Assembly: GCF_007991735.1 (NCBI RefSeq) | Contig: NZ_BJYX01000002.1 | Span: 124,001 to 188,000, forward strand | Direction of reading: 5' to 3' | Origin: Terrabacter aerolatus | GTDB lineage: Bacteria > Actinomycetota > Actinomycetes > Actinomycetales > Dermatophilaceae | Length of the DNA stretch: 64,000 nt | Shown: positions 1 to 64,000 of the stretch, one piece after another | How positions within the stretch are numbered: position 1 is the first letter of the stretch | How the letters are laid out: every line of letters begins with the position of its first letter | Translations under genes and position numbers: made by a program | Notes under the pieces: model-generated | Databases searched by the model: none | Told to the model about the DNA's origin: nothing | Seen by the model: the letters and a program-made list of their open reading frames with translations, nothing else

Positions 1-57
1 GAGACAACGGCGGAACGGATGCTCGACTTCACGCGTGAATACCCTTCGCAGACGTGA
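1..57 (+). CDS. C-terminal fragment of an unidentified protein
   Basis: Frame 1 is open from the window edge and ends at a TGA at 55-57, giving an 18-residue tail ending in REYPSQT. Its codons look normal for this genome. Too little is present to assign a family. It could be a chance open stretch, because only 18 codons are visible. The next 156 bases (58-213) hold no gene I can support and separate this end from the stop codon of the leftward acyl-CoA ligase. Confidence 0.4.
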   Translation, partial: ETTAERMLDFTREYPSQT

Positions 58-213
58 CGCCGGGCGCCCCGGGTCGGGACGGGGTGCGGCACGTCGATAG
101 TGACCCTGCTCCAGTGTCACCGATCGGGCCCAATACTCCAAAACCAACGGCGAGTCCAAACCCTTGCGTGTCGCGGCCGTGGACGTGGTCCCGGGGAGGC
201 GTGGTCGGGGCCG

Positions 214-1725
214 TCAGGGGGCCTCCACCGGCCGGACCTCGCGGCGCAGGATCTTGCCCGTGGGGCCCTTGGGCAGCTCTCCGAGGCTCCAGATCCGACG
301 CGGGTACTTGTAGGCCGCCAGGCGGTCCTTGACGTAGGCCTGCACGTCCTCGAGGGTCGCGGTCGAGCCGGGGCGGAGCACGACGGCGGCCCCGACCTCC
401 TCGCCCATGAGCTCGTCGGGCACGCCGACGACCGCGGCCTCCAGCACGTCGGGGTGCGTGTAGAGCACCTCCTCGACCTCCCGCGGGTAGACGTTCATGC
501 CGCCCCGGATGATCATGTCCTTCTTGCGGTCGACGATCGTGTAGTAGCCCTCGTCGTCGACGGTCGCGAGGTCACCGGAGCGGAACCACCCGTCGGGGAT
601 GGCCTCCTTCGTGGCCTCAGGGCGGTTCCAGTAGCCCTTCATGATGTTCTCGCCGCGGATCGCGATCTCGCCGATCCCACCGGCCGGGGTCTCGTTGCCC
701 TCGATGTCGACGAGCTTCATCTCGCAGCCGGGGATGGCCCGGCCGATGGTGCCGGGCTTCGTCGGCTTGTCGGGCATGTTGAAGGACGCCACGGGGGAGG
801 TCTCGGACAGCCCGTAGCCCTCGAGGATCTGGCAGCCGAACTTCTCCTCGAAGGCCTTCATGACCTGGGCCGGCATGGCGGAGCCGCCGGACGCGCAGGT
901 GCGCAGGCTGCTCGTGTCGGCCTGGTCGGCGTTCGCGTGGTTGAGGATGGCGGCATACATCGTCGGGACGCCCTGGAAGATCGTCACGTGGTCGCGGCCG
1001 AGCACCTCGATGGCCTTGGCCGGGTCGAAGCGGGGGATCAGCGTCAGCGTGCAGCCCTGCTGGACGGAGGTGTTGAGCCCGCAGGTGAGGCCGAAGACGT
1101 GGAACAGCGGCAGGCAGCCCATGATGACGTCGTCCTGGGTGATCCGCATGATGTCGCTCGAGGTGACCTCGGCGTTGCGGTGCAGGTTGAAGTGCGTCAG
1201 CTCGGCGCCCTTGGGCTTGCCCGTGGTGCCGCTCGTGTAGAGGATGACGGCTGTGTCGTCGTCGGCCCGCTCGACGGGCTCGAGCACGGGAGCTCCCGCG
1301 GACTCGGACGCGTCGAACTGCCCGTCGGCGGGTCCCATGGGACCGCACACGAGCAGGCGGGTGCCGGTCTCGGCGGCGGCCTTGGCGGCCTCGTCGGCGA
1401 AGTCGGGCCACACGAAGCTGAAGCGGGCGCCGCTGTCCTCGTAGAAGTACTGGATCTCGCCGGACTTGAGCAGCGGGTTCATCGGCACGACGACGCCGCC
1501 GGCCAGCAGGGCGCCGTAGAACGCGACGGGGTATGCCGGCACGTTGGGCAGGATGAGCGAGACCCGGTCGCCCGGCTCGAGGCCCGCTGCCCGCAGCTGG
1601 CCGGCCACCGCTGCCGCCGCCCGGTGCAGGGCCGACCACGTCAGCTCCACCTGGTCGAGCTTGATGCCGACCTTGTCGGGGACGCGGGCCGCGGTGGCGG
1701 CGAGGTTGGCGGCGAGGTTGGTCAT
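214..1725 (-). CDS. Long-chain fatty acid--CoA ligase (AMP-binding family)
   Basis: This is a 503-residue acyl-CoA synthetase of the ANL superfamily, which activates a carboxylic acid with ATP to an acyl-adenylate and then forms the CoA thioester in the cytoplasm. The phosphate-binding loop [11 protein letters not shown] is at residues 163-173, the YGLSETSP motif lies mid-protein, the hinge-region motif RSGD is followed by DRKKDMI, and the catalytic C-terminal lysine is in GPTGK (K491). Length is normal for the short FadD-like group. The gene stands alone, divergent from ligA, with a GAAGGAG-type ribosome site just upstream of the ATG. The exact acyl substrate cannot be read from the sequence. 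Confidence 0.9.
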
Positions 1726-1881
1726 CTCTGCTCCTTCGCAGGGGGGCGACGCTCGGACTCGCGCCCATTGTCACCGCTGGGTCGCCCGGTGAACAGAGCG
1801 GGTGCCCCCGCCGTCGTGTGACGAGCGTCATCGACGCGGTGAGGTCGGGGCACCGTCGGGACCGGCTGGCAGGATGTGGGC

Positions 1882-62966: not shown

Positions 62967-62977
62967 GGCCGCCGGGC

Positions 62978-63637
62978 ATGGGGGACTGGTCCTGGCCGCT
63001 GCACGGCATTCGCCTGCGCACGGCCGACCTCGACCTGCGGGTCATGACCGAGGCCGACCTGCCCGCCCTGGCGGCCCTGCTCCCCGACGACGTGGAGATG
63101 AACCCGCACGCGACGAGGTATGCCGGACTCGACCTCCGCGCGAACCGTCGGGCCGTCCTCGCGCAGGGCTACTGGCGCGCCCTCGGTCTGTGGTCGCCCG
63201 ACGACTGGGCGCTGCCGTTCGTCGTCCGCAGGGACGGCGTGGTCGTCGGTGCGCAGTGGCTCGAGGGGCCGGACTGGCGTACCGACCGCACGGTCGACTC
63301 CTCGTCGTGGCTCGTCGTGGCGGCGCGGGGGAGGGGCCTCGGCACGCAGATGCGCGCGGCCGTGCTGGCCCTCGCCTTCGGCCCGTTGCGGGCCGAGGCT
63401 GCGGTCAGCTCGGCCGTCCTGGGCAACGCGGGCTCCCTCGGCGTCTCCCGGTCGCTCGGCTACCTCGACACGCACCGGTCCGTGCTCGAGCACTCGGGTG
63501 AGACGTTGCAGCACGTGCGCCTCACCCGTACGGCGTGGTCGGCGTCCGGCCGCGGCGGCACGGACGGCCCGCACGGCGTCGTCGTCGACGGCGTGACGCC
63601 GGCCCTGCCCCTCTTCGGGATCGAGGGCCGCCCGTGA
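62978..63637 (+). CDS. GNAT family N-acetyltransferase
   Basis: The 219-residue RimJ/RimL-like acetyltransferase has the acetyl-CoA loop AARGRGLGTQMRAAVL, a later GNAGSLGVSRSLGYLD, and LRVMTEADLPALAALLPDD at the start. The substrate (amine or protein N terminus) is not predictable. ATG 62978 is 11 nt after gltX, and its stop overlaps the next gene start (GTGA), so it is part of a gltX transcript unit. Confidence 0.84.
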   Translation: MGDWSWPLHGIRLRTADLDLRVMTEADLPALAALLPDDVEMNPHATRYAGLDLRANRRAVLAQGYWRALGLWSPDDWALPFVVRRDGVVVGAQWLEGPDWRTDRTVDSSSWLVVAARGRGLGTQMRAAVLALAFGPLRAEAAVSSAVLGNAGSLGVSRSLGYLDTHRSVLEHSGETLQHVRLTRTAWSASGRGGTDGPHGVVVDGVTPALPLFGIEGRP

Positions 63638-64000
63638 GCGGCCGGTCACTCGTCGAGACGCTCCACGGGGTCCGGGCGCTCGTGCTCGACGTCGACGACA
63701 CGATCGTCGACACCCGCGAGGCGATGGTGGTCGCGGGCACCCACGCTGCGGCGTCCGTCTGGCCCCACCGCACCGGTGAGCACCGCGCCATGGCGCAGCG
63801 CTACTACGACGATCCCCAGGGCTGGTTCCCGCGCTATGCCTCAGGTGACGTCGCGTTCGAGGTGATGCGGGCCGGGCGGCTGTCGGAGGTCGCTGCGGCC
63901 TTCGGTGTCGAGGTCCCCGAGGGCGCCCACCGCTCCTACGAGGAGGCCTACGCGCCCGCCTTCCGAGGCGCCCAGCGGCTCTTCCCCGACGTGCCGGACC
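63634..64000 (+). CDS. HAD superfamily hydrolase, truncated by the window edge
   Basis: GTG 63634 opens a frame still coding at the window end (122 codons visible). LVLDVDDTIVDTREAM is the HAD motif I nucleophile (DxD) and the helical cap follows, so it is probably a phosphatase of the HAD IA type. The start overlaps the GNAT stop by 4 bases. No later motifs are visible. Confidence 0.82.
   Translation, partial: MSGRSLVETLHGVRALVLDVDDTIVDTREAMVVAGTHAAASVWPHRTGEHRAMAQRYYDDPQGWFPRYASGDVAFEVMRAGRLSEVAAAFGVEVPEGAHRSYEEAYAPAFRGAQRLFPDVPD

Follow-up and report, generated by a model that had tools for sequence, protein, structure and literature searches.

The window analysed here is a 64-kb stretch of the Terrabacter aerolatus genome (contig NZ_BJYX01000002.1, positions 124,001 to 188,000) that carries many exact copies of one 8-mer, GTATGCCG. 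We think it probable that a naturally transformable, Terrabacter-like actinobacterium uses GTATGCCG as its DNA-uptake sequence, and that the word is one dialect of a system belonging to its family, which is named Intrasporangiaceae at NCBI and Dermatophilaceae in GTDB. On our best reading, this system would lie outside the two families in which such systems are documented. PMC7811141 describes strong DNA uptake preferences for species of these two families, the Pasteurellaceae and the Neisseriaceae. The first-pass annotation of the window had likened the word to uptake sequences and had named a methylation target or another chromosome motif as alternatives. The likeness is supported by the lack of polarity, hairpins outside promoter gaps, restriction to certain reading frames, even spacing, conserved copies and replacement words in relatives. 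The two alternatives are weakened.

Abundance and strand balance of the word

The window holds 30 exact copies of GTATGCCG (16 on the plus strand, 14 on the minus strand), while 100 dinucleotide shuffles gave 0.97 on average and never more than 3. The first-pass annotation had called GTATGCCG/CGGCATAC over-represented and counted about 31 GTATGCC sites, 30 of them extending to the 8-mer. These counts were reproduced exactly; the one site that does not extend to the 8-mer is at 28137. The sites it located are also correct; those on the minus strand refer to the 7-mer, so the 8-mer begins one base earlier. The enrichment is not confined to these 64 kb. Across the whole genome (4.42 Mb, 62 contigs) there are 2,163 copies, 1,072 forward and 1,091 reverse, or approximately one per 2 kb. 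The reversed word, used as a control, occurs 195 times (90 forward, 105 reverse).

In 464 kb (the window plus contig C1, positions 1-400000), we found 255 copies of GTATGCCG, far from the 7.4 expected under an order-2 Markov model or the 12.3 expected under order 3. No 8-mer has a higher z-score than the word under order 2; under order 3 the top score belongs to its shifted form, ACGGCATA. The earlier claim that codon usage is insufficient to explain the excess also held. A three-periodic order-2 null model that knows the reading frame, run for this genome on the 400 kb of C1, predicts 5.4 genic and 1.5 intergenic copies; 158 and 62 were observed (z about 81). Of the 24 one-mismatch words in the 464 kb, 20 are below 2-fold of expectation, and thus the core of the word is exact. 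The other four are at 2.0-2.2-fold or, in one case, present as a single copy. The looser consensus is GnnCGTATGCCGT. Outside the 8-mer the flanks share only weak preferences, namely G at -3 (70%), C at -1 (59%) and T at +8 (52%).

Highly iterated palindrome 1 (HIP1), Chi and the FtsK-orienting polar sequences (KOPS) are high-copy chromosomal octamers; HIP1 is palindromic, and Chi and KOPS are polar. GTATGCCG is neither. The 400 kb of C1 carry 108 plus-strand and 117 minus-strand copies with no trend and no replichore polarity, and only one of the 106 family genomes with more than 400 copies departs from strand symmetry by |z|>2. Chi and KOPS are therefore rejected as identities for the word, in keeping with the near-equal strand use reported at first pass.

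Placement in genes, gaps and hairpins

Gene calls come from a simple in-house codon-score caller, and with these calls the intergenic share is unreliable for three relatives (G022, G012 and G183). In the 464 kb, 175 copies are genic, 75 are intergenic and 5 lie at gene edges, though intergenic DNA is 10.4% of the sequence. Genic copies favor the frame G-TAT-GCC-G (108 of 175), and 41 more are in the antisense frame GCA-TAC. Rare codons are found largely within GTATGCCG. In the sample of the T. aerolatus genome this applies to 10/10 ATA and 108/171 TAT codons, and in 17 named loci of other genera to 19/29 ATA and 82/391 TAT codons.

Opposite neighbors less than 60 bp apart point inward in 13 cases and outward in one, which bears out the inverted intergenic pairs noticed at first pass. 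None of the 23 classable paired intergenic sites is in a divergent (promoter) gap, although no other class of gap contributes more intergenic sequence (17.8 of 47.7 kb). The window contains four pairs, with predicted hairpin folds of -20 to -40 kcal/mol; two stand out clearly from shuffled sequence (z -5.7 and -4.4) and two less so (z -2.7 and -1.75). A scan of 30-40 kb for intrinsic terminators called none at the two hairpin pairs there. The spacing of copies is more even than random, with a coefficient of variation of 0.77 vs 0.99 +/- 0.06, and none of 2,000 simulations was as even. The copies in the window are:

951..958, minus strand, copy in predicted gene 214-1725 (minus)
1531..1538, plus strand, copy antisense in predicted gene 214-1725 (minus)
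2643..2650, plus strand, copy in predicted gene 1882-4029 (plus)
4972..4979, minus strand, copy antisense in predicted gene 4236-5000 (plus)
7194..7238, unstranded, inverted pair GTATGCCG...CGGCATAC, hairpin 9 bp past gene end; -39.7 kcal/mol, z -5.7
10299..10328, unstranded, inverted pair, hairpin 17 bp past gene end; fold -20.6, z -4.4
11591..11598, minus strand, copy antisense in predicted gene 10390-11928 (plus)
13126..13133, plus strand, copy in predicted gene 11930-13477 (plus)
15689..15696, minus strand, copy overlapping the predicted start of gene 14444-15694 (minus)
17115..17122, plus strand, copy in predicted gene 16466-17422 (plus)
18535..18542, plus strand, intergenic copy
24829..24836, plus strand, intergenic copy with convergent genes either side
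25853..25860, minus strand, copy antisense in predicted gene 25822-26640 (plus)
27638..27645, minus strand, copy in predicted gene 27186-28136 (minus)
30885..30915, unstranded, inverted pair, hairpin 43 bp past gene end; fold -20.1, z only -1.75
37757..37786, unstranded, inverted pair, hairpin 41 bp past gene end; fold -24.9, z -2.7
41818..41825, plus strand, copy in predicted gene 41540-42292 (plus)
42889..42896, plus strand, copy in predicted gene 42302-43669 (plus)
44825..44832, minus strand, copy antisense in predicted gene 43666-45048 (plus)
49142..49149, plus strand, copy antisense in predicted gene 48563-49252 (minus)
51802..51809, minus strand, copy in predicted gene 50555-51895 (minus)
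53016..53023, plus strand, intergenic copy in a divergent gap
54179..54186, plus strand, copy in predicted gene 53940-54290 (plus)
56202..56209, minus strand, copy in predicted gene 56098-56985 (minus)
60248..60255, minus strand, copy antisense in predicted gene 60214-60993 (plus)
63118..63125, plus strand, copy in predicted gene 62978-63637 (plus)

Conservation and distribution among relatives

Window copies were aligned in five sister species at 84-88% identity and compared by Fisher test with control words of the same strong/weak pattern. The control words are few, and all five comparisons use the same window positions for them, so that the tests depend on one another. Sister species retain GTATGCCG approximately twice as often as matched words, with p<0.01 in four of the five: 19/26 copies are identical vs 19/64 controls in G177 (p 3e-4), 20/28 vs 19/63 in G171 (p 5e-4), 21/28 vs 19/68 in G172 (p 3e-5) and 18/27 vs 19/63 in G170 (p 2e-3). 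Each sister species also has 5-8 aligned copies that are missing from T. aerolatus. Copies thus turn over while their density is kept.

The word is abundant in many related genomes, a comparison that the first-pass annotation had pointed to. Of the 186 family genomes counted, 108 (from 31 of 53 genera) have 102-1,356 copies per Mb, 13 have 40-100, and 65 are near background at 2-37. By our reading of the count table, at least 100 copies per Mb are found in none of 362 genomes from other families of the order and none of 293 other-family genomes drawn from the phylum. The highest values outside the family are 161 copies in 1.8 Mb (G816; control 30) and 177 in 2.2 Mb (G395; control 135). Among the named contigs that carry the word are those of Terrabacter, Humibacillus, Intrasporangium oryzae, Arsenicicoccus, four Ornithinimicrobium, Knoellia, Phycicoccus elongatus and Tetrasphaera-like metagenome-assembled genomes. 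It is absent from the examined loci of Intrasporangium flavum, Janibacter indicus and one uncultured Phycicoccus. The Tetrasphaera phage TJE1, a single phage of lower GC content whose host genome is outside our sample, has 2 copies in 49 kb where 0.9 are expected; four Phycicoccus/Tetrasphaera-like loci, for comparison, have 0.7-1.0 per kb.

Replacement words in lineages poor in GTATGCCG

The frame-aware model was applied to 23 sequence sets, each of 40-96 kb, taken from relatives in which GTATGCCG is scarce (2-81 copies per Mb), and 11 contain a candidate word of their own. The candidate is GGATGCCG in G178 and G017 (z 25 and 13) and CGAAGGGG in G052, G054 and G093 (z 14, 9 and 16). Two one-strand words outscore CGAAGGGG in G054; such words, e.g., AAGAACGC, were discounted, as they mostly reflect coding on a single strand. 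G084 has the candidates GTACGGCG and GTACGACG (z 14), G014, G015 and G012 have GTACG-type words (z 11-13), G083 has CGATGCGG in genes only (z 13), and G008 has the weaker candidate CGTAGACC (z 10). A further weak candidate, CGGGGGAG, was seen in G096 (g38; 25 copies vs 4.7 expected, mostly on one coding strand), with a milder excess in G020 (g11; 11 vs 2.4 expected).

Two of these words are genome-wide. They were counted in 62 family genomes, hand-picked from the 186 so that 47 genera were represented and genomes rich as well as poor in GTATGCCG were included. GGATGCCG is high in four (3,949 copies in G178, 3,816 in G017, 4,480 in G034 and 2,195 in G036) and ranges from 260 to 1,027 in the other 58. 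CGAAGGGG, the Janibacter word, is also high in four (1,781, 2,437, 1,746 in g27 and 2,589 in G092), the other 58 having 84-386. G036 is a two-word genome, with 1,217 copies of GTATGCCG in addition to GGATGCCG. In g27, the only close pairs of CGAAGGGG are five inward hairpins, which is the layout of T. aerolatus with a different word. Placed in register, in an alignment made post hoc, GTATGCCG, GGATGCCG, CGATGCGG and CGAAGGGG all have A at position 3, G at 5 and G at 8.

Dialect labels, partly taken from counts in single loci, fit the ComEC tree modestly: they require 12 changes vs a shuffled mean of 14.5, and 2 of 200 shuffles were as low. On this tree G054 clusters with Janibacter indicus (Shimodaira-Hasegawa-like approximate likelihood ratio support 100), whose locus has six copies of CGAAGGGG. 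The nearest named relative of the T. aerolatus ComEC is that of Terrabacter sp. Root85 (83%).

Competence machinery and a proposed mechanism

T. aerolatus encodes a ComEA (SLBB and helix-hairpin-helix domains) adjoining a ComEC with a metallo-beta-lactamase-like domain, as well as DprA. There are two Tad loci. The first has T2SSE, two T2SSF, TadE and TadE/G-like genes beside an FtsK/SpoIIIE protein, and the second has T2SSE, T2SSF, a DUF4244 Flp-like peptide and TadE. Of the competence genes named in the first-pass annotation, comEA and comEC are thus present and type IV pilins were not detected. Type IV pilins were rejected as receptors, as they were not detected in 60 of the 62 family genomes.

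The analysis itself demonstrates the word's abundance, placement, even spacing and conservation, its restriction to the family, two dialects that extend across whole genomes, and the gene content. Sequence-preferring uptake, its receptor, and recombination as the reason why the word accumulates are what we infer. An extracellular DNA-binding protein, most likely a minor Tad pilin of the TadE/TadF type, would prefer double-stranded DNA carrying GTATGCCG. The Tad/Flp competence pilus would deliver this DNA to ComEA, ComEC would pass one strand inward, and DprA and RecA would recombine it. Word-bearing fragments would be taken up more, and word alleles would be copied into more genomes. The word would therefore accumulate wherever proteins tolerate it, which would be in intergenic DNA, in hairpins that follow genes and in a small number of reading frames. 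Drift in the specificity of the receptor would lead to genome-wide replacement of the word and hence to dialects.

Comparison with known uptake systems

The Neisserial DNA uptake sequence (DUS), as described by Frye et al. (2013, PMC3630211), is similar to GTATGCCG in density (approximately one copy per kb to 2 kb) and in its presence on both strands and in genic and intergenic DNA. Inverted pairs, tied to terminators, and lineage dialects are reported there as well, and some family members have no abundant word (PMC3630211). The same source describes two words one base apart in the genome of Simonsiella muelleri, as in G036 here. The differences are the phylum and cell envelope, and the exactness of the word: one-mismatch DUS outnumber exact DUS (PMC3630211), whereas one-mismatch copies of GTATGCCG are not abundant. 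No homologue of the Neisserial type IV pilin ComP was detected in T. aerolatus. The Pasteurellacean uptake signal sequence (USS) has a short exact core and hundreds of copies per Mb (PMC12616744, PMC7811141), and at least two types that follow phylogeny (PMC12616744), comparable to the dialects here. It differs in being Gram-negative, with the type IV minor pilin PpdA/ComN as the proposed receptor (PMC12616744, PMC7811141). GTATGCCG has the layout of DUS and USS, including dialects, but the proposed system departs from both in its type IV minor-pilin feature.

Micrococcus luteus, of the same order of Actinomycetes, resembles T. aerolatus in machinery. It has ComEA/ComEC and two tad/Flp clusters, one beside an FtsK/SpoIIIE gene (PMC8467076, PMC6370729), and its transformation needs the Tad/Flp pilus loci, with tad-1 beside FtsK/SpoIIIE (PMC8467076). 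The available portions of these two papers mention no uptake sequence for M. luteus. Among the open-licence papers listed for Actinobacteria, Micrococcus, Intrasporangiaceae, Terrabacter and Janibacter, none reports an actinobacterial uptake sequence by title or opening of the abstract.

Weighing the explanations

GTATGCCG could instead be the target of an intracellular chromosome-wide system, e.g., a nucleoid, segregation or recombination protein or an orphan methylase. Sites that are genome-wide, evenly spaced and conserved would fit a structural or epigenetic mark too, and the presence of competence genes does not distinguish word-rich from word-poor genomes. We nevertheless regard this as unlikely, because Chi and KOPS are polar whereas GTATGCCG is strand-balanced throughout the family, and because an exact, non-palindromic 8-mer has been swapped genome-wide in some relatives, as reported for DUS dialects. 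A biased repair or mutation process (very-short-patch-like or mismatch-repair bias) might produce a functionless word with an exact core, dispersed across all sequence classes. Such a process should deplete one near-miss word, but these lie around expectation, and it would not account for the even spacing or for the avoidance of promoter gaps by hairpin pairs; we consider it very improbable. It is harder still to credit that GTATGCCG is part of a dispersed mobile or repetitive extragenic palindrome-like repeat. Hairpin pairs do recur at many places in the genome, but the sharing of flanks beyond the 8-mer is weak, which led us to reject such a repeat, and most copies (175 of 255) are within predicted genes in several frames. 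Lastly, the dominance of one genic frame is what codon or codon-pair usage might yield. That frame takes the rare TAT instead of TAC, however, and the frame-aware model, with its excess both in genes and between them, rejects codon usage as the cause, leaving it next to no likelihood.

Several observations count against the uptake-sequence interpretation. We found no uptake experiment in Intrasporangiaceae/Dermatophilaceae in the literature. No type IV N_methyl pilin (PF07963) was detected in T. aerolatus, and only 2 of the 62 family genomes have one; the known receptors ComP and PpdA are therefore without counterpart in T. aerolatus. ComEC and a T2SSE ATPase are present in 62/62 genomes and DprA in 15/15, word-poor genomes included, so the machinery alone does not predict the word, and none of the three discriminates between rich and poor genomes. 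ComEA as the receptor was rejected on co-divergence with dialect, as no signal was found among 27 taxa, a comparison of low power in which L135 had no match and L036 was left out as too short. The inward-pair bias is clear only in T. aerolatus and g27; the 17 named loci have 6 inward vs 4 outward pairs, GGATGCCG in G178 has 4 vs 4, CGAAGGGG in g36 has none and G084 has 1 vs 2. Intergenic enrichment is absent in four Ornithinimicrobium loci (2/34 copies) and for CGATGCGG (3/70 copies). In the fifth sister species, G175, 9/22 copies are identical vs 12/62 controls, which is not significant (p 0.08), and 12 of the 23 sets searched have no clear word of their own.

If the uptake-sequence interpretation is true, it bears on why sequence-preferring uptake evolved, which is an open question. 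If Gram-positive soil bacteria, which use another type of pilus, were a third case, it would follow that such uptake arises repeatedly. Several dialects and word switches within genera would provide material for finding the receptor and for tests of molecular drive; the switches set G084 apart from G085 and G086 in g33, G008 from G005 and G007 in g4, and G034 from G036 in g15. The interpretation predicts natural transformability in Terrabacter, Knoellia, Phycicoccus, Ornithinimicrobium and Tetrasphaera-like polyphosphate accumulators, for which there was no report among the open-licence papers listed. In practice, donor DNA supplied with GTATGCCG could open some of these bacteria to genetic work.

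A gapped word in other Actinomycetes

The gapped word GTACGNCG is in excess in pooled sequences of Nocardioides (genic 263 vs 73, intergenic 33 vs 6) and Kribbella (genic 96 vs 23, intergenic 13 vs 3), with little excess in Streptomyces (genic 158 vs 110, intergenic 13 vs 16) and none seen in Actinomadura or Jiangellales. Among 394 genomes of the class, some have fewer copies of it than of the control word, and the highest count is 12,732 in 5.3 Mb (G963). Neither even spacing nor an inward-pair bias was found in Nocardioides or G963, so that GTACGNCG is at most a possible system of the same kind as GTATGCCG. It is conceivable, though doubtful, that uptake 'languages' are old and widespread in Actinomycetes and read by Tad/Flp pili, with GTACGNCG ancestral and GTATGCCG, GGATGCCG, CGAAGGGG and others derived dialects that set exchange partners. 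GTACGNCG is extremely abundant in some other families of the class, with 74 copies in 22 kb of a Kribbella contig, and near background in others. The genomes and loci concerned include G963, G846, G916, G863, L140, L144, L161 and L164.

Other observations

Intergenic copies of GTATGCCG prefer the extension GTATGCCGTSTGGC, and the extended intergenic consensus is ATGCCGTSTG. Its ATGCCGT.TG portion resembles the 12-mer AT-DUS of Neisseria, a likeness that we take to be probably chance or hairpin composition. The window hairpin at 30885-30915 sits within a run of branched-chain amino acid genes. By similarity to plasmid records, acetolactate synthase, ilvC and ilvN are located at 28578-31843 and ilvD at 23051-24637. 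Sixty plasmid records match window positions 20001-45000, and the 25 among the matches listed are from other families; one plasmid record matches the comEA/comEC stretch.

The two family genomes with an N_methyl pilin are G182 and G054 (C43). Full-length matches to a PilB/GspE-like ATPase, far stronger than the Tad ones, were found in G050 (C130) and G182. The contigs of G182 concerned are C233 and C236. A short ComEC in the word-poor G114 was dismissed as a telling feature, as it is truncated by the contig end. In another word-poor genome, G068, comEC is split. The main piece, which is followed by a serine recombinase with Resolvase, Recombinase and zinc-ribbon domains, is in the region L038 7114-10170 (C1, about 2,175,100-2,178,200), and the first Competence-domain part is approximately 27 kb away (C1:2204467). 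The gene looks as if it had been split by the insertion of a phage or integrative element.

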